DNA of 64,000 bases from Salinivirgaceae bacterium. GTDB lineage: Bacteria; Bacteroidota; Bacteroidia; Bacteroidales; SZUA-534. The notes beneath the pieces were generated by a model. That model was given only the letters and a program-made list of their open reading frames with translations, did no database searches and had not been told where the DNA came from. The position numbers and the translations under genes are program-made. The stretch lies in the NCBI GenBank assembly GCA_017557605.1, contig JAFYYJ010000064.1, forward strand, positions 1 through 64,000. Reading direction: 5' to 3'. The first letter of the stretch is position 1; each line of letters begins with the position of its first letter. Shown here one piece after another: positions 29,074 through 64,000 of this stretch.

Positions 29074-29250
29074 CGTTTGAGAGGAAATCCTAACTCACAT
29101 TTTTTCAACATTGATGCACAATGCATAGCTATTGAACGAAAAAAATGACGCGATAAAGATGCAACCAAATAAGTTGCATTTCCTTTTAGGACTTGCTCTT
29201 TTGCCGGTCAGATTTTCAAAACTTTTTTACGCTACAACAACGATACTATT

Positions 29251-30699
29251 TCAATAAAACAACATCGAAAGCAGATAAGCCACTATGGTTGAGACCGATA
29301 CGCAGATTAGTCCTGGCATCATAAACGAGTGGTTTAGCAGATACTTGCCGATGACGGTTGTGCCGGAGCGGTCGAAGTTGACGGTGGCGATATCCGACGG
29401 ATAATTCGGAATGAAGAAATAGCCGTAAACCGACGGCAGCACGCCCAACAGCACCCAGCCCGGAATGCCCAAAGAGTAGGCCAGCGGAAGCATAGCAACC
29501 ACCACGGCGCCCTGTGAGTTTATCAGCACCGACACGCAGAAGAACACCAGCGCAATCGACCACGGATATTCCGCCACAATGCCCGAAAGCATCGCCTTCA
29601 TTTCGGTCATATAGTTCGAGAAGAAAGTATCGGCAAGCCAGGCAATGCCGTAGATAGCCACCACAGCCACCATTCCCGACTGCCAAACTGGTCCGGCCAC
29701 AGCCTTTTTGGGCGATGCCTTGCAGAAGATTATCATCAGCGCGGCGGCGGCAATCATAACTATCTGAATCACAAGGTTCATTGCCAGCGGCTTTTGATAC
29801 AATTCGGTCATTCCGAACGACTGTATGCCCGATTTAATCAGTTGTTCGGGTGTGATAACAGTGCCGTCGGCAAGAGTTGCCGGAGCTGCGCCTTTAACGG
29901 CACGCAGCGTGCTGTACGATGGCAGAGCGTTCTGGAAAATGGCAAAGAAGACTATCACGCACAGAGCTCCAAGGAAGATGAACACGGCGTTTTTTGCCGA
30001 TTGCGGGATTTCCTTGTCGAGCGTTGTGGCCGAGTTGCCGTAGATGTACTTATATTGTTCAGGGTCTTTCAGTTTTTCCTGGAACTGTGGGTCTTTGTCA
30101 AGGTCGAGTCCGCGGTGGTACGAAGCGGCCGCAGCAGCCATCAGTCCACAAAGACACGACGGAATGCTGACCATCAGCACGCCTGGAATCGAGACATCGA
30201 ACCCGTTGGCATTCGAAATCGATACAAAAGCCACCACGGCAGCTGCAATGGGCGAGCAGGTAATGCCCACTTGTGACGCAATGCTGGCCACGCCGCACGG
30301 ACGCTCGGGGCGGATGCCTTTTTTCAAGGCGATGTCGCAGATAATCGGCATCAGCGTGTAAACAACGTGCCCTGTACCCACCAGCACGGTCAGGAAGAAT
30401 GTGCAGAGAGGTGCCAGGAAAGTGATGCGGTCGGGGTGCTTGCGCAGAAGTTTCTCAGCCAATTGAATGAGCCAGTCCATACCGCCCGACGCCTGCATTA
30501 TTCCAGCGCAGGTCACAGCGGCTATGATTATGTAGATGACATCGGTTGGCGGCGTGCCGGGCTTGAGTCCGAACCCAAAAACAAGAATTGCAAGGCCGAT
30601 GCCCGAAATGGCACCAAGCGCCAGCGAACCGTAACGCGAACCAACCCACAATGCGCCAAGCACAATGCAGAGTTGCAGAATGATTGATAGTGTTGCCAT
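29251..30699 (-). CDS. dcuB: Anaerobic C4-dicarboxylate transporter (Dcu family)
   Basis: An inner-membrane transporter of 482 residues with about ten to twelve helices. DcuA/DcuB signatures are present: GAISGIGLAILVFGFGLKPG, AAVTCAGIMQASGGMDWLI, RHPDRITFLAPLCTFFLTVLVGTGHVVY, GVASIASQVGITCSPIAAAVVAF and the closing FIPNYPSDIATVNFDRSGTT. These carriers exchange fumarate, malate, aspartate and succinate during fumarate respiration, which suits a succinate-producing gut anaerobe. The dcuB name (over dcuA) is a best guess. The gene stands alone, and the 200 bases after its stop hold no clear terminator. Confidence 0.9.
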   Translation of the reverse strand: MATLSIILQLCIVLGALWVGSRYGSLALGAISGIGLAILVFGFGLKPGTPPTDVIYIIIAAVTCAGIMQASGGMDWLIQLAEKLLRKHPDRITFLAPLCTFFLTVLVGTGHVVYTLMPIICDIALKKGIRPERPCGVASIASQVGITCSPIAAAVVAFVSISNANGFDVSIPGVLMVSIPSCLCGLMAAAAASYHRGLDLDKDPQFQEKLKDPEQYKYIYGNSATTLDKEIPQSAKNAVFIFLGALCVIVFFAIFQNALPSYSTLRAVKGAAPATLADGTVITPEQLIKSGIQSFGMTELYQKPLAMNLVIQIVMIAAAALMIIFCKASPKKAVAGPVWQSGMVAVVAIYGIAWLADTFFSNYMTEMKAMLSGIVAEYPWSIALVFFCVSVLINSQGAVVVAMLPLAYSLGIPGWVLLGVLPSVYGYFFIPNYPSDIATVNFDRSGTTVIGKYLLNHSFMMPGLICVSVSTIVAYLLSMLFY

Positions 30700-30859
30700 A
30701 TTAGTTATTTATTGATTGCAAACTTTTTTCTTGTAAATATACAAAAATCACATTACGAAAAGAGCAAGATGTACCGCTTTCATCGGCGCTTTCAGTTAAG
30801 CCATGCTCACAAGGCGAACATCGATTACAAAATCGGCAAATAATAATTACAGAAATCGT

Positions 30860-30867
30860 TAAATTTG
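30860..30867 (+). promoter_or_regulatory. -7 box before the GlcG/HbpS-like gene
   Basis: TAAATTTG, an exact TAnnTTTG match 51 bases before the ATG at 30919. No clear -33 element is seen. Confidence 0.4.
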
Positions 30868-30918
30868 AATGTAATAACAATTATCACGATTGATATTTTA
30901 CCACTAAACCGTAATAAT

Positions 30919-31326
30919 ATGACAAACAAGCAATTAAAAGAACAACTCGAAAAGGCTTTGGAAGATATGAAAGCCAAGGCTATTGAAATGGGAATGCAAG
31001 GTGTGGCAACCGCATCGGTGCTCAACAGCGGCGAAACCTTCGACTGGATAGGCGAAATGAAGGTTGTGGAAACTCCGTGCAACCCGAAGGAAGGCTGGAA
31101 TCTGGTTGCAATTGCGTGGTCGAAATGCGGCGAAGTGATAGCCACCGAAGCCGACAGCGGCAACCCCAACCACAAGAAAATCTTAGGCGAACTTGGCTTT
31201 ACCGGCGGCGCCTACGACGAGTACAAAGGCTGCAAATTGGCTTTCGCTTTCAGCGGCGCAACCTCGGAAGAAGACCTCGTTGTCGCAAAATATGGCATTG
31301 AGAAGTTGAAGGAGTATATTGGGTAA
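30919..31326 (+). CDS. Small GlcG/HbpS-like protein
   Basis: A protein of 135 residues from ATG 30919; the longer frame starts with TTG inside the promoter region. It looks like a compact alpha/beta protein: a helix KQLKEQLEKALEDMKAKAIEMGMQGVATASVL, then GWNLVAIAWSKCGEVIATEADSG, then GCKLAFAFSGATSEEDLVVAKYGIEKLKEYI. This layout resembles the GlcG/HbpS haem-binding or chaperone-like family, but the match is weak and I could be wrong. It is a single gene facing the dnd cassette, sharing its terminator. Confidence 0.55.
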   Translation: MTNKQLKEQLEKALEDMKAKAIEMGMQGVATASVLNSGETFDWIGEMKVVETPCNPKEGWNLVAIAWSKCGEVIATEADSGNPNHKKILGELGFTGGAYDEYKGCKLAFAFSGATSEEDLVVAKYGIEKLKEYIG

Positions 31327-31418
31327 AAGACAGACTGAAATTATCGTGTGTCGCCTAATATTAACACTTTTAGGGCGATAAAGAATTCATTCGGGTTGTA
31401 AGTCTGGCTGAATAATAC

Positions 31419-31449
31419 AAAAAGCGGAGCCTAAGCGGTTCCGCTTTTT
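31419..31449. terminator. Bidirectional terminator between the GlcG-like gene and the dnd cassette
   Basis: AAAAAGCGGAGCC and GGTTCCGCTTTTT form a stem with one G-T pair around a TAAGC loop. A-runs and T-runs on both sides let it act for both convergent genes. Confidence 0.8.
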
Positions 31450-31467
31450 GTATTTATGTTGGATTAT

Positions 31468-33051
31468 TTAGTCTTTATAAAACTGCTTAATTTCAAACAA
31501 TTCGCCTTTTGTAAATTCCTTGATATTAGAAATAGCTTGTCCTTTTTGTATTTTTTCAAGGCTGCGATAAGCTTTTGCTCCATCTGATTCACTGATACCC
31601 AAGAATTTATTTATAGCTTTCGTGTTGTTTTTGTCTTTAACGTCAAGCATAAACGAGATTTCACACATTGTCGAGAAATCAAACGCGGATTGGTTAAATT
31701 CCTCAACACCTTGTGAAAGAAGAACTACTGAAACTCCTTTTGACCGTATTTCACGAAGTATTTTTTCCAAAATATCGTGGTACTTCTTTTCCTTGAATAT
31801 AACGTGTGCCTCATCTATCAAAAGAACATAACGCATTGCTCTACAACCATTTTCAACGGATGTATTCTCCATATTCATAAATACATTGTAGATGTAATTT
31901 ATTATTAGAAACAATGATGTAAATCTCAATGACACAGACAAATCACCTGACAATGACAAATAAATGTTTTGGTTGATGAAATTGTTGGCATTCTTTTCTT
32001 CTGAAAAAACATTGTAACGGCTTAAATCATCAATTATCTCGGTAAGCAAATCCCTTTTATTGCCAACAATATCAAGCAATTTCTCATATATTTCTTTGAA
32101 ATTAGGATATTCTCCTGGTTTCTTCTCTTCAAAACATTCTTTAATCGCTGTCCGCAGACTACCTTTTTGTTTCTGTCCCAAATTAGAATAGTTGCATATA
32201 ATATCAGTAAATTTGTCTATCCCCATTGACTTATTTGTGTCATTATAGCAATCGATAAACGACAAGGGATTGATTGGAAATGGCTTATTTGGAACATCAA
32301 TGAAACTTGTTCTTGTCCTTTCAAAGAATGGTTTCATCTGTTTAACATCGTCATCCTTCAAGCCTTTGAAATCCAAATAGATAAAATTTACAAGATGATT
32401 TGACAAATCGCTTATCTCCCGTAACAAATAAAGTGCGAATTGTGTTTTTCCGGTTCCCGAATTACCGGCGATTGCCATATGATTATTATTGTATAACTCG
32501 GTGTTGTTAAATCCTAATACGATTTCATCTTTAGTACCTAATTTATTACCCAACGGAATTTTAATTGGCTCGCCAAATACCGTCTTGTCAATGTTTTGGC
32601 TATTATTTTTTACAGAGCCAAACTCTGAATGGCTTTCCAAATGAGCGATGCCTGCATCCAAATTATCAATCAAGAAATCAATTATTGTGTAGTTATTGCT
32701 GCCCTCAAAAAGTTTGTCCATCAACTCAAGACCGTGGTCAATATGCAGTTTCACATATTTTGGAATGTTCTCATCCGTTTTATAAATGCCATAATGCTGA
32801 CAAATCAAGGCTATGTATAAATCCCTGTATTTGGGGTCGAAAAGGATATGGTCTTTATACTCTTTTCCCTTTGAATCATAGCAGTTGAACTCTGATGACG
32901 AAAACTTTTTACCACTTTCCAAAGAGTATGCTAATGCGATTCTTGCAATCACGTTTTCACTCGTTCCATTTGGAAGTTTTGCCGTTAGTTTGCGAACGAC
33001 ATCCTTATTCTGTTCCGATGTTTTAATATTAATCTGCTGCATAGCGCTCAT
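31468..33051 (-). CDS. DndE fused to a HerA/FtsK-like ATPase (DNA phosphorothioation)
   Basis: A protein of 527 residues with two parts. Residues about 1-115 are DndE-like: VIARIALAYSLESGKKF, LFDPKYRDLYIALICQHYGI and YVKLHIDHGLELM. These are the features of the small DndE protein, which alone is normally about 110-130 residues. Residues about 150-527 are a HerA/VirB4-type P-loop ATPase: IPLGNKLGTKDEIVLGFN, NNHMAIAGNSGTGKT (Walker A, about 195-202), YVLLIDEAH (Walker B, about 411-417) and GVSVVLLSQGVEEF after it. The gene overlaps dndD by 23 bases and is AT-rich. The fusion would tie DndE to a DNA-translocating motor. The domains are seen, while the role is inferred. Confidence 0.85.
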   Translation of the reverse strand: MSAMQQINIKTSEQNKDVVRKLTAKLPNGTSENVIARIALAYSLESGKKFSSSEFNCYDSKGKEYKDHILFDPKYRDLYIALICQHYGIYKTDENIPKYVKLHIDHGLELMDKLFEGSNNYTIIDFLIDNLDAGIAHLESHSEFGSVKNNSQNIDKTVFGEPIKIPLGNKLGTKDEIVLGFNNTELYNNNHMAIAGNSGTGKTQFALYLLREISDLSNHLVNFIYLDFKGLKDDDVKQMKPFFERTRTSFIDVPNKPFPINPLSFIDCYNDTNKSMGIDKFTDIICNYSNLGQKQKGSLRTAIKECFEEKKPGEYPNFKEIYEKLLDIVGNKRDLLTEIIDDLSRYNVFSEEKNANNFINQNIYLSLSGDLSVSLRFTSLFLIINYIYNVFMNMENTSVENGCRAMRYVLLIDEAHVIFKEKKYHDILEKILREIRSKGVSVVLLSQGVEEFNQSAFDFSTMCEISFMLDVKDKNNTKAINKFLGISESDGAKAYRSLEKIQKGQAISNIKEFTKGELFEIKQFYKD

Positions 33052-35146
33052 TGTATTCTTTGATTAAACAATTTGGTTCAACTTCAACGAATTTCGACTC
33101 ATATATGCCAACATTGTCGATAATATATGCCTTGCTTACGTTTGGTTTTAACAATTCATATTCTGCTTCAGTTAATTCTTTATGTATCAATGGGAATATC
33201 ACAACTTGATTTGATACATTCGGATAGAACTCCTTGATGACATTCTCGGCGTGCTCTTTGTCAAACTTTTGCATTGGGCTATCAATGAAAACAGGGAAAT
33301 CAATGTCTGATTCATCAACCAATGATTTGAGCAAAGCTGAAGCATACATTTGGCTTTCTCCTTTCGACAAACCGCTTTTATCTATTTTTTGACCATTACT
33401 GTCTAATAGGTTTATATCCACATCGTTGCCTTCCTGGTTAATGTCCACAACAACCTTTTTGATGAAACCTTTTTTGTGCATAAGAGCGTTCAATTCGTTC
33501 AAAATATTCTCTGATAGTTTTTCTTTGGTTTCATTTCTGTATTTGTTGATGAAATCCTTAAGGTTTTCAACAAGTTCTCTCGTTTTTTTGTCTTTTTCCG
33601 AATAACTTCTCGAATCGTCCAATTTCTTCCGCAAATCTTCTTGTCGCTTTTTTGCTGCGGTTATTTCATCATTGATATTTCTTATTTGTTCCTCCAATTT
33701 GCCTGTTTCATTGTCAATGGCTGAAACTCTATTGTCAAGCATTGATTTCTTTTGCCTTAACTCTGCCGTATAATCATCATCGGCATCTTTCTCCGCTTTC
33801 TTTATGTCTCTACGAATTTTGTCAATGTCGTTCCTTGCGCGGTTATACGTATCTGTTATTTTATTGAACTCTGTACTAAAACTGCCTTTCAAATTGCCAA
33901 TAAGCGCCCCAGTTTCGTTTATCTGTGTATCAGTAAAATCGTGCAATACTTGGAAATCTGTCGGAACATCCACTGCATTTGTGAAGAAATACTTGCGTAT
34001 CAGTTTTTTTATCTGCAACTCGTAAAAATCACGAGCATCAGTCGGAATAACATTCTTATAGTTTTTCTTCTCGATTTCAATGTCATTCAATATTGATTTT
34101 GTTTTGGCCTCAACATCGTCTTGTTTAAACCTATTGTCGTTGAAGGCTTTCTCTGCTTTTATCTGTTCGTAAACGTCGTTTAAAATTTCTCCTGACAAAC
34201 CAAAAGGAATCAAATCAAACAGTTCCTTCATTTGAGATTGCAAATCGGCAATTTTTTGTTCTTGCTCTGCCTCTTTTTCTTTAAGCTTTGCGAGTTGTTC
34301 GGGTGTTATAACACTACCATCTTGAATTAGACGGATTTGTATTTCATCAGATTCCTTTTTCTTTTCAACTTTTTCTTCGTGCAATTTTATGATTTGTTCT
34401 TCATTGGTTTCAATCTCAATCAATTTGTTCTTTATGTCGGTTTCTATTTGATTGAAAGATTGCTGGTCTTCTTTCGATGCAGATTTCTTGCGGTAATCAT
34501 CTTGCAAACTCTCTAATTGGTCTTTCAAATCCTCATATTTTTTTATTCCCAAAACTTCAGTGTAAGCCTTGCTCAATATTTTGCGTTGTTCGGGTGAGTT
34601 GTTCTCTGCAATAGAAACAATCTTTTCTGCATCAAAAAAGAAGAACTTGGCAACCTCAATAGGCAATATGAAATCTCGAATAAAAATCTCTTCTCCGTCT
34701 TGCTTCCCTTCTGTAGTTAATTCTCTAATCAATTCATTTGGGTAGCCATCAATCAAAACCTCAACACGGTCTTGGCTTGTGAAGTCATCGTAAGTTCTTG
34801 TAATTCTAACCTCATTACACGTTATATCTGGTATTTTCACATCTTGGAATACCACCGACACCGAAAATTTCGTTTCATTTTCCTGTTTGGCCTGATTGTT
34901 CAATGTTTTCGTTATGTACTTTGTATAACCGCCACTTTCTTCGATGACTTTCTTATACATTTCATCGACGTGTTCCATTTGCTTACCATACAAGCACCAA
35001 ACCAACGACATCAAAAATGTTGTTTTGCCAAATCCATTTTTGCCGCTCACTACTACTATATTTTTGTCGTTTGACGGCAAAAGGTTTATCGTATTCGACC
35101 CCTTGTAAATACGGAAGTTATCGAGTGTTATTTCTTTAATCTGCAT
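33029..35146 (-). CDS. dndD: DNA sulfur modification ATPase DndD
   Basis: An SMC/Rad50-like ATPase of 705 residues. N-terminal head: ITLDNFRIYKGSNTINL, Walker A VVSGKNGFGKTTFL at about 33-45, LPIEVAKFFFFDAEKIVSI. Long coiled-coil arms run from about 190 to 540 without a zinc hook. C-terminal head: signature LSKGESQMYASALLKSL, Walker B FPVFIDSPMQKFD. The FFFFDAEKI motif is typical of DndD. In Dnd systems DndD works with DndC and DndE in putting sulfur into the DNA backbone, probably by nicking or opening DNA. It overlaps dndC by 11 bases and is strongly AT-rich. Confidence 0.93.
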   Translation of the reverse strand: MQIKEITLDNFRIYKGSNTINLLPSNDKNIVVVSGKNGFGKTTFLMSLVWCLYGKQMEHVDEMYKKVIEESGGYTKYITKTLNNQAKQENETKFSVSVVFQDVKIPDITCNEVRITRTYDDFTSQDRVEVLIDGYPNELIRELTTEGKQDGEEIFIRDFILPIEVAKFFFFDAEKIVSIAENNSPEQRKILSKAYTEVLGIKKYEDLKDQLESLQDDYRKKSASKEDQQSFNQIETDIKNKLIEIETNEEQIIKLHEEKVEKKKESDEIQIRLIQDGSVITPEQLAKLKEKEAEQEQKIADLQSQMKELFDLIPFGLSGEILNDVYEQIKAEKAFNDNRFKQDDVEAKTKSILNDIEIEKKNYKNVIPTDARDFYELQIKKLIRKYFFTNAVDVPTDFQVLHDFTDTQINETGALIGNLKGSFSTEFNKITDTYNRARNDIDKIRRDIKKAEKDADDDYTAELRQKKSMLDNRVSAIDNETGKLEEQIRNINDEITAAKKRQEDLRKKLDDSRSYSEKDKKTRELVENLKDFINKYRNETKEKLSENILNELNALMHKKGFIKKVVVDINQEGNDVDINLLDSNGQKIDKSGLSKGESQMYASALLKSLVDESDIDFPVFIDSPMQKFDKEHAENVIKEFYPNVSNQVVIFPLIHKELTEAEYELLKPNVSKAYIIDNVGIYESKFVEVEPNCLIKEYNERYAAD

Positions 35147-36506
35147 TGTTTTCCTTGTTTATATAGTTCTCGATACGCGTTTCAATGTCGGTTTTTAACC
35201 CACGTTTACGGTTCAATAACGATTTGCTTTTTTGAAGAGTCAGCAACTCTTGTATCAAATCGTAGTTGTTGGGGCTGTCTTTGCAGACTTCTTTCAGCAA
35301 GTCAACCTCTTTTTTAAGTTTCTCGTTATTCTCCTTCATATCGAAATCAGTTTTATAAATCTTGTGATATATGTCAGATACTTTATAGTCAAAAATAAAA
35401 TCGCGATACCAAATCGTCTGTATTGCAATAAGTTCTTGATTGGTTATTAATTGTGCATTGGGGTGCCTTTGTTGGATTTCCTTTTGTGTTTCCATCAGTT
35501 TCTCCAACATTAAGGCTCTATAGACTGGGGTGTAACTGCCCATATCGTTTACGGCTTTTGTCCCGTTCCGTCTTGTTGTCATTCGGTTGTTAATATTGTT
35601 GCGTTCTGCAACTATCCAATCTCTATACGTCAGTAAAGGTTTCAACCATTCAAAGCCATTGTTAATCAGAGCCGCCATCGATTTATCCTCTTTCACAACA
35701 GTACACAACCAACAACCAAAACGGCTTTGTCCGCACGATTTATGAGTTGTGTCTGTGACAACAACTGGGCATTCATAGTCATCGGCCGATGCATCCGCAT
35801 ATATCTGAAACAATTGCTTATTGTCAGCTCCCCACGGCGAAGGCATTTTGTTTATTATATACCAAACTTGTTCCAACAGCAAGTGCCTTATTGGGGCATA
35901 CATCCACGCATTGGGTTGAATAGGATGTTTCGTAAGTCTTTTACCTTTTATCGAGTGGCTTTTCATTGTCCTGGCACGAGTAGCACTTTCTGCGTAACGT
36001 GTACCAATTAGAATGATAGCCTCTCCAAAAGTGTCAACTTGTTCGGTAATGAAACGAACGGTAGGTTTTATTTTCAAACGCTCCGTGCACCAACGAAACG
36101 CGTTGTTTGGTGCAGGATAGCCTTTACCAATCATATTCACCCAAAGAGAATCTTCCAATCGTGGAATAGTTCTTACAACACGTATTGGCATATCTTGTTC
36201 TACAGCAGCCTGTTCTATTTTGTCCAACACACCATTCACATATTCAACAATGATTGGGTTTTCAATCATTGTATCGTTACTTACAACATAGACATCGCGC
36301 CCAACAAAACCGTGAAAATGCTTGGCTTTTTCCAATGCCTTCCACACTAATTGAAGCATTACTGTAGAATCCTTGCCTCCGCTAAATCCTATTATCCACG
36401 GGCGTTTGGTAGAATCAGCGAACATATATTGGTCGAGAATCTCATCTATTATGTTTTGAACAAATTCCAAATCGTCAACAACAATCTTTCCTCGTCCGTC
36501 AAACAC
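35136..36506 (-). CDS. dndC: DNA phosphorothioation sulfurtransferase DndC
   Basis: A PAPS-reductase-like protein of 456 residues. The ATP-pyrophosphatase loop is IIGFSGGKDSTVMLQLVW. The family's IGTRYAESATRARTM follows. Likely iron-sulphur ligands are the cysteine in AFRWCTERLK and those in SCGQSRFGCWLC. DndC takes sulfur from a cysteine desulfurase (DndA or IscS) and activates it for transfer to DNA; no desulfurase gene is in the window. Start is GTG at 36506: an in-frame TAG lies nine codons upstream and the next Met is residue 28, too close to the P-loop. First gene of the dndC-dndD-dndE unit. Confidence 0.93.
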   Translation of the reverse strand: MFDGRGKIVVDDLEFVQNIIDEILDQYMFADSTKRPWIIGFSGGKDSTVMLQLVWKALEKAKHFHGFVGRDVYVVSNDTMIENPIIVEYVNGVLDKIEQAAVEQDMPIRVVRTIPRLEDSLWVNMIGKGYPAPNNAFRWCTERLKIKPTVRFITEQVDTFGEAIILIGTRYAESATRARTMKSHSIKGKRLTKHPIQPNAWMYAPIRHLLLEQVWYIINKMPSPWGADNKQLFQIYADASADDYECPVVVTDTTHKSCGQSRFGCWLCTVVKEDKSMAALINNGFEWLKPLLTYRDWIVAERNNINNRMTTRRNGTKAVNDMGSYTPVYRALMLEKLMETQKEIQQRHPNAQLITNQELIAIQTIWYRDFIFDYKVSDIYHKIYKTDFDMKENNEKLKKEVDLLKEVCKDSPNNYDLIQELLTLQKSKSLLNRKRGLKTDIETRIENYINKENNAD

Positions 36507-36860
36507 CCCGAATCGGACTTTGTTACCAATCTATTATTATACAGCCACATACAAAAACGTGGGTATCTGAACCTTCACTAGTCTGTCGTTTGTGGTTGTA
36601 GGAAAAACCATTGAGTATAGACAAGCAAAGAGATACCCACGTTGCGTGTATATAGCCCGAGAAAGCGTGCTGGGACAAAACGCCCCAAGGCACACCCCCG
36701 GAATGTATACCACATCCGTAGCATCGTCTTTAGCACTGTTTTTGATACTCGATATTTGAAGTTTCCTACATTTCAAACGACCAAAAACAAGCATCAGGTG
36801 ACGCTTTATGTATGTAACGCCGTAAATGCTAAAATGGCACAAACGGCAAAGGACAAATGT
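36507..36860 (-). ncRNA. Structured 350-base leader upstream of dndC, possible RNA
   Basis: No convincing gene lies in the 586 bases between dndC and the symporter. Read on the minus strand, the stretch contains a 13-base perfect inverted repeat (36556-36568 with 36631-36643), an inner TGGTT/AACCA hairpin in its loop, and a second hairpin where GTGC-TGGG pairs with CCCA-AG-GCAC (about 36668-36694). A TAnnTTTG box at 36854-36861 points into it. This could be a regulatory leader of the dnd operon or an independent RNA. Function unknown. 36862-37036 shows nothing further. Confidence 0.4.
36556..36643. repeat. 13-base perfect inverted repeat with 62-base spacer
   Basis: AACGTGGGTATCT at 36556-36568 and its exact complement AGATACCCACGTT at 36631-36643. 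The arms are too far apart and too exact for a simple terminator, and no T-run follows. It may be a long-range RNA stem or a recombination/operator site. Confidence 0.75.
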
Positions 36861-36861
36861 A
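36854..36861 (-). promoter_or_regulatory. Possible -7 box driving the dnd leader
   Basis: Minus strand TACATTTG, an exact TAnnTTTG match; no good -33 box. The distance to the dndC GTG is about 348 bases, so a long untranslated leader would result. A TATAAT-like string just before dndC is a second, weaker option. Confidence 0.35.
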
Positions 36862-37036
36862 GGGAAATTTGGAAAAGATTGTAGTGTCCGCGTTTTAATT
36901 CTATTCGCATATCAGTTCTCATATTTTATATCAAACTTTTCCCGCACTTGTCCTAAACTTATCTTGTCGTGTTGCCAAATTATGCAGTTGCCAACTGTAC
37001 AAATAATTCGGTTTTTCAAAGAAAAGAGTCGACAAC

Positions 37037-53491: not shown

Positions 53492-56400
53492 CTATGGGTT
53501 TCTAATAACCGGACGAACTGTCAATCCATAGCAACGAGCATTCATAGTTTCTATGACATGTGCTTGCTGTGGTTCCAAACAAAATGCAGACCTACCATCA
53601 AGATTTTCCGAATACCAATATTCGCCTATCAAACGGGATTCTGTGTCGTTTGTTATTTTATCAACACCGTCGAAGTAACCGGCTGCAGGAAGGAATATAT
53701 GCGGGTCTGACAATCCGTAAGAAGCTTCTCCATCAGCAATCTTTCCCTTGTCATTTGAGGATTTAGCCCTATACACAATACGACCGGGCACCCCTGTATC
53801 ATTATAGTCATTTACCCATGGACAATAACAATTAGACATTAGTTCAGTTCCATCAGCACTAGTTGGCATCACCCAATTGCCGCCCCAATTAACAGATGCA
53901 GCATCGTCCTGAATATCAAGAGATGTCACATAATCGGGACTATCGCCATAGTTAGTATGGGAATAATATCTTGTTAACTTAGTAGTATCAGTTCCATCGG
54001 TATATTTATAGTTTTTCCAATAATAGCCTTTTTTCCCATCGTTCCATGTGCCTGTTGCGGATAAGTAGTACGGCTCCGTCTCACCCCATGCGAAATAATC
54101 ACCAAAATCTTGGGGATTTTCTGCGCCAATATTAGTGGTTGCCCACAGTGTGTTGGTACCAAGGTCGACATAATAGTGTCCTTGTCCGTCAGATATCATC
54201 CAATCAGGAGTGGTTTGGCTGGTGGAGCCGCCGCCTGTGCTAAAATCGCGGATAGCACAAATTCTTAACACGTTACTTCCGTCTTTCTTAAAGCTGGTGG
54301 CTACAAAGCCTACAGATGCATTATATACAAAGCCAATGGCATTTACGACTTCAGCTTTGCTTTGCGACGATGTCCAATAATTTTTACCAGTTTCAAACTT
54401 CGTACCGCCACAAGCGTCCATAGCGGCATTCACCATTGTTACTTGCGACGACAGACTGTAAAACTCTGCTGCCGAAGGGAAATACCATCCTGTGGCATAC
54501 TCCGAACCTGCCACAATTGTATCAGTTGTATAGTTCTTTGCCCAATAGAAGGCCGGATAATCAGCCTCAATCTCGGTAACATCTTTGCCGAAGAAATCGG
54601 CAATCTGTTTAAGGTTGTCGCTACCGTTTTTATCATAACTGGCTTCGAATGTATATGCACCAGCCGAACCTGATGGCTCGCATTTTATTGAGGTAATATC
54701 AACCGAGCTGGCTTCCGCACCTGCAACGCACCAAGCCAAACCACTGGCATCCTGTTTCAAACCCACGCCAAGCGTACGCTCTCCCCCGTTGTTCGAGCAA
54801 TCGGTTCCCTTGTAGAATATCACCGCAATAGCCGCTGATTTCTGTTCTTCTGCAATATTGGTGTAATATTCCGCACTACCATCGTTAAAGACGATATCGC
54901 CAACGGCTAGTTGCGAACCCGGGGCTTTGGAGCCAATGTAGCTTGTGCCTTCCTCAATTATACGGTCGGCCAGACTGCCGCTGTAGCCGTATGAGTTGCC
55001 ATCATAGCATGCATTCGCACTGGAATAAAACCCGTTGTCACTAGTAGCATTCAAATATGCATTCCTGCTACCCGCTGGAACATAAAACTTAAGGTTCGAA
55101 TTGCATCCATAGAATTCCACCGGATAATCACCATACTCGCCGAGATAAGAAGGAGGCGTAGCGCTAGTAAAATGAATCTGTTCCAATTTCGGACAATCCG
55201 CAAATACAGCCCATAGCATACCGGCTTTCCCCCAAGTCACTGACTCCAATGCTTGGCAATTTCTAAATAGGTTATAACCCGACATGGTAACACCAGAAAG
55301 ATTGGCAGACTGCAACTTCTGACATTCAACAAAAACAAATGTCTGCAAATAAACAATCCGCTCCAAGCCATTGATAGTCACAAGGTTCTTGTTATACATA
55401 AAACCACAATCTTCTATTCGGGTTACAAATGAGGGTATTTCATATGTTGAACCAGATTTTGCAGGCGGATAGAACAATAGGTTAGAAATACCTGTTCCCC
55501 ACGTATCTTTTTCTCCAAACAACACACCATCAATTGTCTTATAATGAGCATTTCCGTCGGCGATGGTAACAGAAGTCGCCTCACCTCTAAAGGCAATATT
55601 AGCAAATGCATCTGAACTGATACTTTCAACATTAGGTGGTAAAACTACAGTTATCAGATATGCTGGCAATCTATTAACATTTGCAATTAATGTCGCCTGC
55701 GACATGTCTAAAGTGGATGACCTATTTATGTCATAATTGTAGCAAAAATACTCCAAATCACTATCGGTTACTGTGTTATCAAATATGAATTCGTATGATT
55801 TTTCTTCATCAGGTGTGAATTCTTGGATATTGCTATGCGTCAAGGTTACTACTACTGGAGATATTTTTATCAAAATTCCTTCCCCATTGACTTCCCATTC
55901 ACTAGGCATGCTTGGGTTGTCCGAATTTCCCTGCGGTGTTACAGCAAACCTGCTATATTCTGTTGCCACATACTCACCGCTAAGCACTTGCACCTGACTT
56001 GTGGTCGATGGATAGTTCTGCGGGGTGATGGTGGCGACTGTGTTTTCGCCTTCGGCAAGGTTGCCAACAGTGACAGTATTTCCTGATGCAAGAGAGACAT
56101 CGTTGTCAGCAGCCACAACGGCGCCACCACTCATTATCATTGTGCCTTGTACGTACACGCCACTACCGACCATTGATGTGGTGTTACCACTGATTTCGCC
56201 GCCTTTCATATCAAGAGTTCCATTCTCATAGATAGCCACTCCGCCACCCGAACCGCCACTAATAGCATGGTTGCCTGAAATCTTACTGCCGGCAAGCATT
56301 GTCAGCTTGCCTTGTAAGATATCGACACCGCCGCCACCGTCATTAGATGCACTATTTTCAGTTATGAGTGCACCATCGTCCAGCGTAACATCGGCATTCG

Positions 56401-59400
56401 CGGCGTTTACATTGATTCCGCCACCCAACATGCTGTTTCCATCTGTGATTTTCAGATTCTTGATTGTTATAGGCACTGTGGTTTGAATGCTTAATACAGG
56501 ATTACTGCTGCTGCCTGTAATTACATCCTCCGGTTCCTTGCCTTGGACTGGCTTGGTTGCACCTTCGAAGGTGATTCGTCCGGCTTTACTATTCAAATCA
56601 TTGGTAATCGAAATATTGCCAAGGGTCGTGCCCATTACTTTAATGGTGTACTCGGTTTCTGTGTTGCCGTCACCATTTTTTATCTTGTTAAGCGCTGTAC
56701 CAAGCGAGGCAATCGCTGTAGCCGGTGTCAAACCATTTTTACTATCATCACCGCCTTCTGACTGTGGTTTAACATAGAATGTGTGCGGGTCAGGAGCATT
56801 CACCTCAAGCGCGCCTGCTAGCGGCTCGGCTCCGTAGGTCTGCACTTTAACTGTGCGAGTGCCGGCGGTTGCCGGAGCAGGGAATGTGGCTGTGATTTCG
56901 GTTGCGCTCTCGAGTGTAAATGTCGCATTCACCATGGTGTCGTTCAGGCAGATGCTGGTGAAGTTGAGCATCTGATTAGTGAAGTTTTCACCGGTGATTG
57001 TTGCGGTTACAACATCGCCACCGAAAACATTATCCGACAGGGTGATTTGGGTGAATTGCGGGATGTTTTGGGCAGAGCCATTAGCTGTGGCTTTTATTCC
57101 ATATCCATTAACATAAGTGTATTGATAATAAGTTATTGTGTTTGGCGCTGTTTCGCTAATTACAAATGGTGTTATGGTAAACTTTCCATATTGATTGTTC
57201 TTGTCATCCAACGAACCATAGTCAGAATATTTGTTATCGTAACCGAGGCTGGTGCTTGTCGTAGTCTTGGTTGGCATAATCTGAGCAACCTTTTCGTGTG
57301 TAAGTGTGCCATCGATTGTGACATTAGCATAACCATTTTCCAAATATACATCGTGCTTGAAATCGGCTCCAGCAGGAATATATGCATCGCCACTCAAAAT
57401 GAATCCTCTAGCAGCAGCGTTACGAACAGCGCCACCGTTTTTTAGGGCACTGTTGTTGGCAATTACTCCACTGTTCATATAAACTTTAGCATAACTGCCG
57501 CTGCTATAAACACCGCCGCCATCGTAATTTGAACGATTGCCAAATACACCACCAGTCAGTTCCTTATAATTGTACTCATATACGGCCTGCTCGTTTACCA
57601 CGCTCATAGTGCAACTATTGCAGCCCATATAGAAGCTACCACCGGCAACATAAACACCGCCGCCATATTGTGAAGCATAGTTGGCACAATCGCTCTCGCC
57701 AACAGGTGCTTTTGTGGCGTTGGCATCGCCAATAACAGCTGAGCCGTACATATACATAATTCCTTTGACATACGCACCGCCGCCAGCATAAGCTTTATTC
57801 CCGTCAATCACTACGCCGTCGGTCAACGAGACTTTTGCACCGGAAGCCACATGGAGACCACCTCCACATATTTCCTGGTCTGTCCATATATCCGTAGTAT
57901 TGTTTCCTCCGGTAATCTTAAGATTTTTGATTATTACCGGATTGGTGGCGAAGATATTCAGAACGGCGCTGTCGGTTGGCTCGGTAAAGTTGCCGTTGAG
58001 CATATCCCTCGGCACACCATTGGCATCCAAATCGCGTGCGCCAATAAGTATTATTGTGTCGGCTGCAATGGTGCCGCTAATAACCTGCTTGCCGTTGAGC
58101 TGGCCGTTAATCTTGATTGTCCAATCGAGGTCGGGCGCATCTTTGCTGTTGATTAGCTCAACCGCTTTGGCTAACGATGCGGCTGTCATGGCTCCGGCTG
58201 CACCGCTTGGAGCGCTCGGCACATAAACCTCAGGGTCGCCCCAGCCGGCATAGAGGGTTGTTGTGGTGCTACCCACTTCGTTGTTGAAGTTGAATGGTAT
58301 TGTACCCTCAGCATCGGTGTACCAACCCGTGAATACTTTGTCTGTGCTTGTCGGCTTGGTAGCAGGCTCGGCCACTTTACCATTGTTGCCAACAGGCATT
58401 TTTGCAAATTCAGTTCCGTTATTCATAAAGGTAACCACCGTGCGCTGGGCGAGTTTGCCTTCGCTATCAACTTTCCAGTAAGTGGTAGTAGTGCCAACAA
58501 CTTGGTCGGTAACGGCGAATTTGTCGTTTTGCATTCCTGCGCCGTCTGCGGTTGTAAGAACTTGAAGACCTGACTGATGTTGGTTATTTTGCGTGTAATA
58601 CGGTGTTATGGCAACCAAAGCTTCGTCGGCCAGTGTGCCGGCAACGGTGATTTTAGCCGACTGATAGGTGTCGTCGCTCATTTTTTTCATTTGCAAAGCT
58701 ACATCGTTATCAGCTGCTATGTTTCCTCCTTTCAACATGAATGTAGATTCAAAGAATGGATGCGAGCTATTGTTTTCATAATAGGAAGAAGCAACAAACA
58801 CACCACGTCCGTAAATTGCTGGAGTTGCCTCTGTTGCTGTGTTACCATAGATGCTCCCCCCCCTCATCTCAAACACACTCGTCCATGCCTCAGTCGCATT
58901 TTTGCCATTTGTCTCAACATAAACACCGCATCCTTGTGCTCCTGCGGAATATTGTCCTTCGGCTTTAGCAATATTATAGGCAATGGTACCGCCTGTCATC
59001 ATAAAAGAACCGCCGCCACCAACACGCACACCAGCACCGTTAGCTACACCTGTATTGTAGCTTATTGAGGCATTCTCATTCATTATCGCCTCGCCACCAT
59101 AAATAGACAAGCCGCCTGTGCAACCCTTGCCTTCGCTACCGCCAATGGCAGAATTACCAAACATATTAAATGTGCCACCGTTGGAAACTTCAACGCCACG
59201 GTCTGAGCAGGTTTCTATTCTTGTGCTGCCGTACATATTGAATGTTGCATTGGAACCAACTTCCACGCCTATGCCTGTACAACCTTCTATTTTAGCGTTG
59301 TCTTCCATTGTGAATGTGCTTTGGTATCCCTCATAACCGCCCACATTCACACCTGCGCCATTACCGCCATTGCAGTTTTGAATAACGGCATCGCCCTTCA

Positions 59401-62400
59401 TTGTAAACGTGCCCTGTTTGTATTCGGTGGAGCTGTTTCCAGTATTAGCATCATAGAGATAGCTTTCTTTATAAGTAACATACACGCCACCACCGTTTTT
59501 CACTTTAAAGTTTCGGATAACAGCGTCGCTTTCCATTACAAGCGTTCCACCCTCGACATACACACCGCCGCCATAACAACTATTATTTGACTGATATTCA
59601 CCAGCGTTAGCACCGTCAAGAATAGTACCTTCCGAAAGAGTTACTTTGGCATTTACGCAAACATAAATGGCCTTGCCTTTATTGTCGTATATTTCACCAA
59701 CAGGATTGAATTTGAAATTGTTAATCACGACCTCATTGTTTGGCCCAACCTTCAGCATTGTATAATAATTTTTACTGTTGTTGGTTAATCCGCTGTTTTC
59801 ACCCGTGCCTTGCAGCGTTATCGTTTTTGCAATGGCATACGGATATTGGTCTGCATCACCAATCCTAACTTTTTCATCGCTTGAGCCAGATACATTGATT
59901 GTATAATCCTTGTCAGTTACATTCCAGTATTTTACGATGTCGATAGCTTTTTGAATAGTTTCGAATGCTTTATTCGAAGCAATTCCACTGTTGTTGTCGC
60001 TACCATTATTTACATCGACATACAGTTCGTTAGCAACCCAATTGGCGATAAGGGTAACATTGGCTGTAATAGGTTGTTCGAAATCGAACGGCACCAAACG
60101 TTGGTCAATTATACGTTTATGGCTTGAATCCCATAAATCTTCCTCAACACACCACCCTGCAAAGGTGTAGCCGTCTTTCTTGAAGTCCTGATTGCTTTGC
60201 AGATTTTGTAAAGTTTGCAACCACTGTTCCGAAAGTTTTGCTCCATAAGCCACTTCCTGTGGAGCCAGTTCAATACCATCCACTTTTGTGTCGAAAGAAA
60301 CATAGCATTTTGTTGGCACCACTATGCCCTTAAACTCAATATATGGTTCATCGGCTGTTATTTTTGCATTTTCATCGAAAATGTATTCGGTAGTTTCCTG
60401 GCCATTTTCTCCCATCTTATACCATAAATACATATAGTCGCCTTCAGGGTCGGCAGGTTTTTCGGTTATTTGGCTGCCAAAGTCAAGGTTATACTCTAAA
60501 AGTGGTACATATTCATACTGTGTTCCCCATGGGGAAGTGATTTCTTGTTCCGCCACGAAAACAACATGGCCCACTTGCTCCAATTTGCCCGAAATGCCGA
60601 CTTTCCAATATGATATAGGATTATTCCATGAATCAGTATACGGCGCCACAGCAAATTTGTCGCAGATAGCCTTTTTCTGGTCATCGGAAAGGCCGTCTGG
60701 CAATGTCAGCACTTGTGTTTCATTGTTATAATACCCATACAAACCAGCAAACGTTCCCACTATGTCGGCTGTAGCATCAAAATGACTGCCAATGGTTATT
60801 GTTTTGAATGTGCTACTGCTATATTCATAATACACAACCACATTACCTACCTCGACATCGCCATCAATTGTAAATTCGCCATAATTGTAAATGTCCATTG
60901 GGGCATATTCGTCGCCAATGTTATTGCCTATAAATCCGCCTTTCATCACAGTTGTTCCGCTATTAACAATGGCAGCACCATTACCGCTCACATAATTGTT
61001 TTCAATTACGGTTCCTTGGCCAATGGTAAGCGTAGAACCTTCAACCACGAGAACACCAGCACAACAGATTGTTTCCGTATTACCATTAACACCGTTTTCT
61101 GTAATCAAAACATTGTCTAACAGTACATTGGCATTAATATTTTCGCCACCAACATACAACGGTGAGGCATAGCCGCCATACTGTCTTCCACCGGTTATTT
61201 TCAGATTTTTAAGAGTAACTTTTGTTGTAGAGTTGGCAACGCATAGTACTGATTTGTTTTCGGCATCCAAATTACCTTCCGCATTAATCTTAAAGCCGTC
61301 GGTTTGCTTGTCGGTGCCGGCAATGGTAAGCGATTTGGCCGCGCAAGCGCCAATGGTTACCGTAGTACCGTTTACAAACAATCCACTAATATTTATAGTG
61401 AAACTTGCATCCGCCTTGCCAAGTCCGTTAATCTTCTCAAGAGCCTTTGAAAGTGATGCAAGAGGCGTTTGGGCGCTCAAACCGTCAAAATCGTCGTTGC
61501 TGTTTTTATTTGATACATAATAGGTTGCAGGTTGGAAGTTGGCCGTATAGTTTATTGGGCCGGTAATGCCTATCCGGCGCACTGAGTCGATGCAACCATC
61601 ATTCCATCCCAAAAAGATGCAGCCTTCAGCGGCAACAGGCACCAAATTGATTGAGTCGCCATAATTGACTTTGGTTGCGGGTTTCTCAACCGAGCCCCAA
61701 GCGGCATTGTTAGGCTGTGCGTTAATGTCGAAGCCTTCTTTAAGGCCGGCAAACATCGTCTCAATTTCGGTCAGGTTTCTGCGTTGGTAGTCGCCACGCA
61801 TAGTGAAGTCCTGATAGTTTTCGGTTATTTTGATATTCTCGTCGGTTATGTCGCCATCATAAAGAGTGTAGTAGTAATCCGACAAATCGATATTGTAAAA
61901 ATCGCTGACAGTGCCGTAGTTCCATTGCAGGCTCGTCAGATAAGACATTCCAACCGTTTGTGTGACACGCACGGCTGTGTCGAGCAGGCTGTAGAAGACA
62001 TTTAAATTTCCGGAGAACAAGCTGCGCGCGCTGTCGTTCATCATTGCCACAATGTTGCGCTCCGACTCCATCACCTTGCCATGGTCGCCGTTTGGCGAGT
62101 AGAATGCGGTTCGTCCGTCTTCGGCTAAGGCTGAATAAGCCGAATCGCGCATGGTGCTTTCAAGAATGACAAGCAAATCGTTGTCGCTCTTCAAGTTAAG
62201 CTTGAGTTTTTCTTTGAAATCGGGGTTCACTTCCGAATACGGCATAATTGTAGGCTCTCCTGCCTCAATATATTTTACATAATAGGTGTTATCGCCATAT
62301 ACCTGTCCATCAACAATATAATAGTTACGGACAGTATTGATGAGGTCGCTGCCACTCTTAAATTGGGTTTTCAGATAGAGATACTCGCCATTATCGCTAT

Positions 62401-64000
62401 GATAATAAGTATAATTTATCAAGAATTTCTTTCTTGTTGTCATGACACCTTCGCTCTTAACAAGTGGCAGATACAACGCGCCGCTTGAGTACGATTTGTC
62501 GGCTTTCGAGTCATCGATAATCTTGCTAACCTCACCCGACACGCTCTGCACCTCCTCGGCCACGTAAGTGTCGATTTTAATAATGGTGCTGTCTTTGCTA
62601 ACGGCAAGCAAATCAGACTTTTGTACCATGCCGACAACTGCAAATCCCGAAGCCAGACTCGGAACTACAATCTCGCCTGTGGTGGTGTCGGCCACTGGCG
62701 CGTCGTTAATGTAGATGCGGGTGCTGTCGCGGTTGATTGTGAAATAGTTATCGCTGCCCTTGCCGCTGCGTCCGGCCACTGCAAACCTGCTCTTGGCCGC
62801 CTTGCTGTCAGCCTCGTCGATGTAGATTACAGAGCCGAACTGGTCGATTATGAAATAAGGCTCAGCATCGCCTTTGCCCGGACGGCCTGCCACCGCAAAC
62901 CGGCTTTTAGCCGCCTTATCGTTATCGTCAACATCAATATAGAAAGTTGCTTGGTCGCCATCGATGCTCATCACATTTTCCGAGGCGTCTTTACGGCCCG
63001 GTCGGCCAGCCACGGCGAATCTGCTTTTAGCCGCCTTGTCGCTCGAGTTGAAATCGACATAGATGGTTGAGCCGTCGCCATCGATGGTAAACTTGTTTTC
63101 CGACTGACTGTCGGCACCCTTGCGCCCCGGACGGCCTGCCACGGCGAATTTGCTCTTGGCAGCTTTGCTTCCGTTCTCGTCAACATAAATTGTTGAACCA
63201 GAGCCGTCGATGGTCAGCATGTTGTTCTGTTGGCCACCCTTACGCCCCGGACGACCAGCCACAGCGAATTTGCTTTTAGCGGCTTTGTTAGCGCTAGCGT
63301 CATCAACATAAACCAATGTTCCGTTCTCGTCGATAGTGAAATAGGTATCAGAAGCGCCCTTGCGTCCCGGACGCCCTGCCACGGCGAACTTGCTTTTGGC
63401 AGCTTTGTTTTCATTATTGTCAACATAAATTGTTGAGCCGCTGCCGTCGATAGCCAGCAGGTTGTTTTGTTGGTCGCCTTTGCGTCCCGGACGGCCTGCC
63501 ACTGCAAATTTACTTTTGGCTGCCTTGTTTTCGTTATCGTCATCAACATAAACCAATGTTCCGCTCTCGTCGATGGTCAGCAAGTCGATGTCTGCCTCTT
63601 TGCCGGCGCTGCGCCCTGCCACAGCGAATCTGCTTTTTGCAGCTTTCTCGCTTTCGTCGTATTCGACAAACACCTTCACGCCAGTCTCATAAACGGCGAA
63701 CATAGGATTGCCGTTGCTGTCGTTTATCTCGAAGATTGGCTCCTCCGATGCCTCAGCCGGCTGAATGACAGTGGTTGTGCGGTGTGCATACATGGCATAC
63801 GGCACAGGCATAATCTGCATCGAACCCAAATCGGTAAAATCTGCGCCGCCGTTAACATCGGCCTCAATGCGCATCATCACCCGCATCGACTCCCACGGCA
63901 CAGCATCGAAACTGCCTTTAAGTGGCTCACCCTCTCCCACGCTCACATTAACGTTGCCATAGGCGTTTGTTGTAACCGCATGTTGCTCCTGATAGCAGAT
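53492..64000 (-). CDS. Giant repeat-rich surface protein (partial, 5' end off window)
   Basis: The frame is open from the stop at 53492 to base 64000, over 3,500 residues; a GTG at 63946 is not the true start because coding continues upstream (QEQHAVTTNAYGNVNV). Parts from N to C: a Bacteroidetes SMQIMPVPYAMYA segment (about 63790); FAVAGR repeats (63655-62566); an InlB-like GWNDG region (61700-61540); four beta-helix modules (61530-60600, 60030-58480, 58230-57080, 56780-55870) separated by Listeria-Bacteroides-type GWY repeats and an IPT/TIG-like domain (57070-56790). A BspA-type leucine-rich stretch (55850-55050) and two Fib_succ_major/DUF1566-like domains close it, ending GLTVRPVIRNP. Probably an adhesin or glycan-binding surface protein; no catalytic residues or sorting tail recognised. 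Confidence 0.88.
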   Translation of the reverse strand: MCYQEQHAVTTNAYGNVNVSVGEGEPLKGSFDAVPWESMRVMMRIEADVNGGADFTDLGSMQIMPVPYAMYAHRTTTVIQPAEASEEPIFEINDSNGNPMFAVYETGVKVFVEYDESEKAAKSRFAVAGRSAGKEADIDLLTIDESGTLVYVDDDNENKAAKSKFAVAGRPGRKGDQQNNLLAIDGSGSTIYVDNNENKAAKSKFAVAGRPGRKGASDTYFTIDENGTLVYVDDASANKAAKSKFAVAGRPGRKGGQQNNMLTIDGSGSTIYVDENGSKAAKSKFAVAGRPGRKGADSQSENKFTIDGDGSTIYVDFNSSDKAAKSRFAVAGRPGRKDASENVMSIDGDQATFYIDVDDNDKAAKSRFAVAGRPGKGDAEPYFIIDQFGSVIYIDEADSKAAKSRFAVAGRSGKGSDNYFTINRDSTRIYINDAPVADTTTGEIVVPSLASGFAVVGMVQKSDLLAVSKDSTIIKIDTYVAEEVQSVSGEVSKIIDDSKADKSYSSGALYLPLVKSEGVMTTRKKFLINYTYYHSDNGEYLYLKTQFKSGSDLINTVRNYYIVDGQVYGDNTYYVKYIEAGEPTIMPYSEVNPDFKEKLKLNLKSDNDLLVILESTMRDSAYSALAEDGRTAFYSPNGDHGKVMESERNIVAMMNDSARSLFSGNLNVFYSLLDTAVRVTQTVGMSYLTSLQWNYGTVSDFYNIDLSDYYYTLYDGDITDENIKITENYQDFTMRGDYQRRNLTEIETMFAGLKEGFDINAQPNNAAWGSVEKPATKVNYGDSINLVPVAAEGCIFLGWNDGCIDSVRRIGITGPINYTANFQPATYYVSNKNSNDDFDGLSAQTPLASLSKALEKINGLGKADASFTINISGLFVNGTTVTIGACAAKSLTIAGTDKQTDGFKINAEGNLDAENKSVLCVANSTTKVTLKNLKITGGRQYGGYASPLYVGGENINANVLLDNVLITENGVNGNTETICCAGVLVVEGSTLTIGQGTVIENNYVSGNGAAIVNSGTTVMKGGFIGNNIGDEYAPMDIYNYGEFTIDGDVEVGNVVVYYEYSSSTFKTITIGSHFDATADIVGTFAGLYGYYNNETQVLTLPDGLSDDQKKAICDKFAVAPYTDSWNNPISYWKVGISGKLEQVGHVVFVAEQEITSPWGTQYEYVPLLEYNLDFGSQITEKPADPEGDYMYLWYKMGENGQETTEYIFDENAKITADEPYIEFKGIVVPTKCYVSFDTKVDGIELAPQEVAYGAKLSEQWLQTLQNLQSNQDFKKDGYTFAGWCVEEDLWDSSHKRIIDQRLVPFDFEQPITANVTLIANWVANELYVDVNNGSDNNSGIASNKAFETIQKAIDIVKYWNVTDKDYTINVSGSSDEKVRIGDADQYPYAIAKTITLQGTGENSGLTNNSKNYYTMLKVGPNNEVVINNFKFNPVGEIYDNKGKAIYVCVNAKVTLSEGTILDGANAGEYQSNNSCYGGGVYVEGGTLVMESDAVIRNFKVKNGGGVYVTYKESYLYDANTGNSSTEYKQGTFTMKGDAVIQNCNGGNGAGVNVGGYEGYQSTFTMEDNAKIEGCTGIGVEVGSNATFNMYGSTRIETCSDRGVEVSNGGTFNMFGNSAIGGSEGKGCTGGLSIYGGEAIMNENASISYNTGVANGAGVRVGGGGSFMMTGGTIAYNIAKAEGQYSAGAQGCGVYVETNGKNATEAWTSVFEMRGGSIYGNTATEATPAIYGRGVFVASSYYENNSSHPFFESTFMLKGGNIAADNDVALQMKKMSDDTYQSAKITVAGTLADEALVAITPYYTQNNQHQSGLQVLTTADGAGMQNDKFAVTDQVVGTTTTYWKVDSEGKLAQRTVVTFMNNGTEFAKMPVGNNGKVAEPATKPTSTDKVFTGWYTDAEGTIPFNFNNEVGSTTTTLYAGWGDPEVYVPSAPSGAAGAMTAASLAKAVELINSKDAPDLDWTIKINGQLNGKQVISGTIAADTIILIGARDLDANGVPRDMLNGNFTEPTDSAVLNIFATNPVIIKNLKITGGNNTTDIWTDQEICGGGLHVASGAKVSLTDGVVIDGNKAYAGGGAYVKGIMYMYGSAVIGDANATKAPVGESDCANYASQYGGGVYVAGGSFYMGCNSCTMSVVNEQAVYEYNYKELTGGVFGNRSNYDGGGVYSSGSYAKVYMNSGVIANNSALKNGGAVRNAAARGFILSGDAYIPAGADFKHDVYLENGYANVTIDGTLTHEKVAQIMPTKTTTSTSLGYDNKYSDYGSLDDKNNQYGKFTITPFVISETAPNTITYYQYTYVNGYGIKATANGSAQNIPQFTQITLSDNVFGGDVVTATITGENFTNQMLNFTSICLNDTMVNATFTLESATEITATFPAPATAGTRTVKVQTYGAEPLAGALEVNAPDPHTFYVKPQSEGGDDSKNGLTPATAIASLGTALNKIKNGDGNTETEYTIKVMGTTLGNISITNDLNSKAGRITFEGATKPVQGKEPEDVITGSSSNPVLSIQTTVPITIKNLKITDGNSMLGGGINVNAANADVTLDDGALITENSASNDGGGGVDILQGKLTMLAGSKISGNHAISGGSGGGVAIYENGTLDMKGGEISGNTTSMVGSGVYVQGTMIMSGGAVVAADNDVSLASGNTVTVGNLAEGENTVATITPQNYPSTTSQVQVLSGEYVATEYSRFAVTPQGNSDNPSMPSEWEVNGEGILIKISPVVVTLTHSNIQEFTPDEEKSYEFIFDNTVTDSDLEYFCYNYDINRSSTLDMSQATLIANVNRLPAYLITVVLPPNVESISSDAFANIAFRGEATSVTIADGNAHYKTIDGVLFGEKDTWGTGISNLLFYPPAKSGSTYEIPSFVTRIEDCGFMYNKNLVTINGLERIVYLQTFVFVECQKLQSANLSGVTMSGYNLFRNCQALESVTWGKAGMLWAVFADCPKLEQIHFTSATPPSYLGEYGDYPVEFYGCNSNLKFYVPAGSRNAYLNATSDNGFYSSANACYDGNSYGYSGSLADRIIEEGTSYIGSKAPGSQLAVGDIVFNDGSAEYYTNIAEEQKSAAIAVIFYKGTDCSNNGGERTLGVGLKQDASGLAWCVAGAEASSVDITSIKCEPSGSAGAYTFEASYDKNGSDNLKQIADFFGKDVTEIEADYPAFYWAKNYTTDTIVAGSEYATGWYFPSAAEFYSLSSQVTMVNAAMDACGGTKFETGKNYWTSSQSKAEVVNAIGFVYNASVGFVATSFKKDGSNVLRICAIRDFSTGGGSTSQTTPDWMISDGQGHYYVDLGTNTLWATTNIGAENPQDFGDYFAWGETEPYYLSATGTWNDGKKGYYWKNYKYTDGTDTTKLTRYYSHTNYGDSPDYVTSLDIQDDAASVNWGGNWVMPTSADGTELMSNCYCPWVNDYNDTGVPGRIVYRAKSSNDKGKIADGEASYGLSDPHIFLPAAGYFDGVDKITNDTESRLIGEYWYSENLDGRSAFCLEPQQAHVIETMNARCYGLTVRPVIRNP
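62566..63655 (-). repeat. Eight-copy FAVAGR protein repeat array plus one decayed copy
   Basis: Units of about 37-43 residues (about 115-130 bases) each begin KAAKS[RK]FAVAGR, then a basic PGRKG-like segment and an I-D-x-x-G-[ST]-x-[IV]-Y-[VI]-D strand. The unit nearest the C-terminus is degenerate (ASGFAVVGMVQKSD). Close similarity at the DNA level between inner copies suggests recent expansion and a potential for copy-number change. Confidence 0.9.

Follow-up and report, generated by a model that had tools for sequence, protein, structure and literature searches.

Three genes, dndC, dndD and a dndE-motor gene (here dndEi), lie in this order on the minus strand at positions 31468-36506 of the window, the whole 64,000-nucleotide stretch of Salinivirgaceae DNA that was analysed. 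Their frames overlap, as the original prediction had described. The dndC gene (35136-36506) has a GTG start and encodes a PP-loop sulfurtransferase of 456 amino acids with an SGGKDST motif and the loop GYPAPNNAFRW. The dndD gene (33029-35146) encodes an SMC/Rad50-like ABC ATPase of 705 amino acids with a coiled coil and the motif SGKNGFGKTT. The product of dndEi (31468-33051) is 527 amino acids long and consists of a DndE domain joined to a HerA/FtsK motor. The overlap of dndC with dndD is 11 bases, and that of dndD with dndEi is 23 bases, or 14 if dndEi starts at Met4, as its homologues suggest it may. An inverted repeat directly past the dndEi stop (AATACAAAAAGCGGAGCC/GGTTCCGCTTTTTGTATT; 31414-31454, assigned to neither strand) is a possible terminator, perhaps acting in both directions. 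A small gene at 30913-31326 is convergent with dndEi; no protein family matched it significantly, nor did it have a match in any of the ten further genomes from the genus. Elsewhere in the window, one open frame of 3484 codons occupies 53492-63946 on the minus strand.

The two parts of the DndEi protein were separately supported by profile searches. Residues 9-113 (32713-33027, minus strand) matched the DndE family PF08870 with 71.4 bits against a cut-off of 25 (E = 9.7e-20). The protein scored 37.5 bits with the NCBI DndE equivalog TIGR03184, below the cut-off of 71.85, and is a fused rather than a stand-alone DndE. In the C-terminal part, the AAA_10 and HerA_C profiles were above cut-off and residues 147-512 matched residues 1323-1701 (of 1715) of the PADLOC DndH profile (E = 3e-28). 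A search with TIGR04095 gave only weak helicase-like matches, all below cut-off. The motor carries a Walker A motif (GNSGTGKT, 196-203), a Walker B motif (LLIDEAH, 410-416) and SQG at 446-448, and most of the Walker residues and the SQG are invariant across 29 DndEi homologues. Described as stretches, the AG..GTGKT P-loop, IDEAH, LREIRSKG and SQG are invariant or almost so.

An AlphaFold2 model of DndEi was built from the 29 homologues (mean pLDDT 82, pTM 0.69). Its motor, about residues 161-527 (31471-32571, minus strand), has the same fold as the C-terminal domain of DndH, its nearest solved relative (crystal structure 7es4; Z 38.7, rmsd 2.5, 354 aligned residues), followed by VirB4 (Z 27.8) and then HerA proteins near 23. 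The whole-model fold search returned, among the matches listed, the motor only; the DndE half was modelled with lower confidence, and its support comes from sequence and not from the fold search. The predicted kinship of the motor with that of DndH was thus borne out by both profile and fold. The motor is 25% identical to one Bacteroidota DndH and differs from DndH in having no TRD, methylase-like or nuclease domains.

The fusion had been presented as a departure from known Dnd loci. This part of the prediction failed, as the same architecture was described in 2016 as DndEi, and the window locus is a further example of that known type. The 2016 protein is reportedly from Riemerella anatipestifer. 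An N-terminal DndE, a C-terminal motor with Walker A and B motifs, and an operon with dndC and dndD are all present here. The title of the 2016 report calls the helicase activity of DndEi essential for phosphorothioation (Zheng et al. 2016 JBC 291:1492), in agreement with the proposal that the motor acts in the modification step. Several Prevotella and Bacteroides strains have also been reported to carry a dndEi whose product has a helicase domain added (PMC7464106); the likeness of the window protein to published DndEi is one of architecture and description, in a Bacteroidota host. HerA/FtsK-DndE fusions beside a DndD-related ABC ATPase were assigned to clade 3 of the HerA/FtsK proteins, which also holds some DndH motors (Rakesh, Aravind, Krishnan 2024; PMC10853773); the window cassette has the same arrangement, and no mechanism for the fusion is given in the portion of that study cited here. 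With these reports the fusion architecture must be regarded as already described. Compared with the canonical DndABCDE system, the cassette shares the DndC, DndD and DndE domains and the overlapping genes, but its DndE is fused to a motor, whereas the canonical DndE is stand-alone, and it has neither dndA nor dndB.

DndC and DndD each passed the cut-off of their equivalog, with 428 bits for TIGR03183 (cut-off 290) and 269 bits for TIGR03185 (cut-off 246), respectively. The best PADLOC match of DndD was the PbeC model, of the zinc-hook (Pbe) system with its CxC motif. This assignment was rejected because no CxC hook motif is seen in the window DndD, and the passing of the NCBI DndD cut-off further rules it out. 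In an alignment of 36 DndC rows, including that of the window, Cys140, 246, 258, 265 and 268 were invariant.

Three residues of a DndC loop have been tied to the phosphorothioate motif, with TRS specifying GAAC/GTTC, RxK/R specifying GGCC, and TQN or NQT specifying GATC (PMC12193691). The window triplet is NNA, within the loop that lies just ahead of Cys140, and fits none of these, so that the published code offers no prediction of the cassette's motif. It also differs from the TRS linked to GAAC/GTTC, the motif published for DndEi. NNA was found in 28 of the 36 rows, the others being NNS, NNT, NNV, NNQ, NSV or NST, and the unfused sister cassettes described below carry NNT, NNA or NNS. The NN triplet thus occurs in both fused and unfused DndC, and tracks lineage rather than fusion. 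A triplet outside the published codes counts against reading the locus as a phosphorothioation cassette.

None of dndA, dndB, dndF, dndG or dndH was found within the 64-kb window, as had been noted for the surroundings of the cassette. The search was extended to the whole genome, which is about 95% complete in 124 contigs, so that a partner gene could sit in an assembly gap. It holds a single DndE; DndB had no match anywhere, and the sole match to the DndH profile was the dndEi motor itself, with no full-length DndH. DndF also had no match in the genome, although the control likewise gave no match anywhere. The genome thus offers no dndB or dndH accompanied by a separate dndE, a finding that would have spoken against the prediction.

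No cysteine desulfurase is encoded in the cassette operon. A SufS-like gene with the motif RTGTHC, followed by sufE, lies elsewhere in the genome and is the only strong Aminotran_5 match (504 bits, with the next at 48.6). IscS was therefore rejected as the donor, there being no second strong Aminotran_5 match and no IscS-type match in the genome. In two other loci, sufE lies directly 5' of dndC (L073:6144-6548 and L074:6145-6567), hinting at a dedicated sulfur-transfer partner, and the host SufE is 45% identical to that of L073. Taken together, the host SufS with its adjacent SufE and the sufE genes ahead of dndC make the Suf pathway the likely sulfur source, and SufS-SufE the more likely donor than IscS. 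The proposal of a housekeeping donor accordingly stands as regards a desulfurase, probably of the Suf type, and not as regards IscS.

On this evidence, we read the locus as a DndC-DndD-DndEi phosphorothioation cassette, fed by the Suf pathway, in which the motor acts in the modification step, and which is most likely modification-only or served by an unlinked or unrecognised restriction partner (probability about 0.8). DndC would receive sulfur from the host SufS-SufE, carry it on an Fe-S cluster and read the site. The DNA would be held by the SMC-like ATPase DndD and the DndE domain. Powered by ATP, the fused HerA/FtsK motor, which probably forms a ring, would open the duplex or move it for the placement of sulfur in the backbone. 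In the window genome, such a cassette would most likely modify DNA only, or else work with a restriction partner that is unlinked or unrecognised. The fusion, the DndH-like motor, the absence of dndB and dndFGH from the cassette and the role in modification were retained from the earlier interpretation; its novelty and the IscS donor were not.

The frequency of the fusion and its neighbours were surveyed by scanning 84,980 species genomes once for DndEi relatives, which gave 43 named loci, almost all labelled Bacteroidota. Two of them belong to cultured carriers, Parabacteroides faecis JCM 18682 (L053), in whose record the frame of dndD looked interrupted, and Flavobacterium macrobrachii an-8 (L037). 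In 40 of the 43 loci, dndD was directly upstream, and 36 also yielded dndC; the remaining loci lack these genes because their contigs end too early. Downstream of dndEi, a co-directional pair encoding a ParB-like (PD-Lambda-5_A-like) protein and a protein of unknown function was present in 13 fused loci (for example, L050:11594-13677, after dndCDEi). A GHKL ATPase (HATPase_c_3) with Methyltransf_35 was present in five (L071:11598-13882, after dndCDEi), and DndB in four, accompanied by another small protein or by one that appeared GIY-YIG-like by eye (L053:11579-13335, GIY-YIG-like and DndB after dndCDEi). A membrane protein with a DndB-like protein was found in one locus, and an Mrr/HARE nuclease (REase) in three. 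Loci with no such partner were common, and include the window, L066 and L032. The same modules were also found after unfused dndCDE, and the two-gene modules are exchanged freely among relatives.

The cassette might then be only the modification half of a system, the restriction half lying elsewhere in the genome or having been lost. The swappable co-directional modules of the relatives (ParB-like, HATPase_c_3 with Methyltransf_35, DndB and Mrr/HARE), which also follow unfused dndCDE, speak for this explanation; no such module stands beside the window cassette or its closest relatives, L066 and L032, and we regard it as possible rather than probable.

Other fusions were also seen. Distant DndE-motor fusions in L103, L104 and L105, which are 31-34% identical and adjoin DndD, make up a second lineage. 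The gene preceding dndD is not dndC in either L104 or L105, and that of L104 encodes a protein with sigma-70 region 4 and helicase-associated domains; the contig of L103 stops within dndD. At L109:615-5682, a DndE-motor fusion has no upstream dndD; the genes that precede it encode an HNH protein and others whose wHTH-like and AAA-like matches are weak.

For comparison with the fused loci, ten unfused cassettes were collected from genomes of the order Flavobacteriales and one genome of the window's own order. They encode DndC proteins that are 53-60% identical, together with DndD and a stand-alone DndE 124-143 residues long. The dndFGH genes lie within about 15 kb of four of the ten; none were found in the available flanks of the 43 named fused loci (26 of which have at least 15 kb) or beside 11 fetched fused loci, which partly overlap the 43. 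Fisher's test gave p = 0.004 with the 26 longer-flanked loci, 0.013 with near-copies merged, and 0.017 or 0.04 with the 15 longest fused loci only, values that are optimistic since the loci are related and flank lengths are unequal between the sets. The comparison is suggestive of a tendency of fused DndEi to stand without dndFGH nearby. All ten unfused rows fall into a single group (100/100) of the DndD tree, in which the label switches two times. The second switch is at L135:3621-4142, where a 173-residue DndE matches DndEi through residue 172 and stops short of the motor, which was probably lost secondarily.

A fusion acting as self-contained defence, with dndFGH unneeded because the motor drives modification and also acts on unmodified invader DNA by blocking or translocating it, would account for the absence of dndFGH beside the 43 named and 11 fetched fused loci compared with its presence at four of ten unfused ones, and the motor does share the fold of DndH. 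However, no nuclease domain is present in the three cassette proteins, many fused loci carry added downstream modules, and flank lengths differ between the two sets. Moreover, with the exception of a single row, the DndD tree separates fused from unfused loci into two groups, so that the loci are not independent. We consider self-contained defence unlikely. A part in defence for the motor, which had also been suggested, is unproven, and no nuclease accompanies the cassette.

The G+C content of the cassette is 34-40%, compared with 50-54% in the neighbouring genes, and its 85% similarity at the DNA level to L066, the closest relative, is confined to the three genes (31474-36469). In the congener G010, ssb adjoins a symporter gene; the window has 7.9 kb at that position, absent from G010, in which a transporter gene and a small gene are present besides the cassette. 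In a second congener, G004, genes for a C-5 DNA methylase, an HATPase_c_3 protein and a Z1-domain protein lie beside the symporter gene (L096:705-6164, compared with window 29113-37028), which makes this site look like a defence hotspot, and it is likely to be one. By these signs of mobility, the cassette is a compact, mobile, low-G+C three-gene insert, and would have arrived in that form. A transposon marked by flanking repeats was discounted, as none around the cassette were convincing. Carriage by a phage was also discounted, as viral contigs held no relative and phage and plasmid records held distant motors only. That the cassette is a decayed remnant without function, as its solitary position, low G+C and patchy occurrence in the genus might suggest, is highly improbable, since all three frames are intact, the overlaps are preserved and the catalytic residues are conserved.

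The phosphorothioation cassette with its motor in the modification step is therefore the reading we carry forward. A wider proposal, that fused DndEi is a stable branch with a motor of the DndH kind in its modification complex, no dndFGH, rotating two-gene partners and an undescribed recognition rule signified by NNA, is more doubtful and is put forward tentatively. Beyond the clade-3 listing of PMC10853773, the present survey adds the neighbour modules and the unfused sister group. The NN triplet, common to fused and unfused Bacteroidota DndC, provides a test of the published specificity code. Dnd systems modify only 12-14% of their motifs (PMC7464106), and site occupancy could be compared directly between natural fused sisters, which have the motor, and unfused ones, which lack it, their DndC being similar. 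The survey thus makes it testable whether the motor explains site choice.
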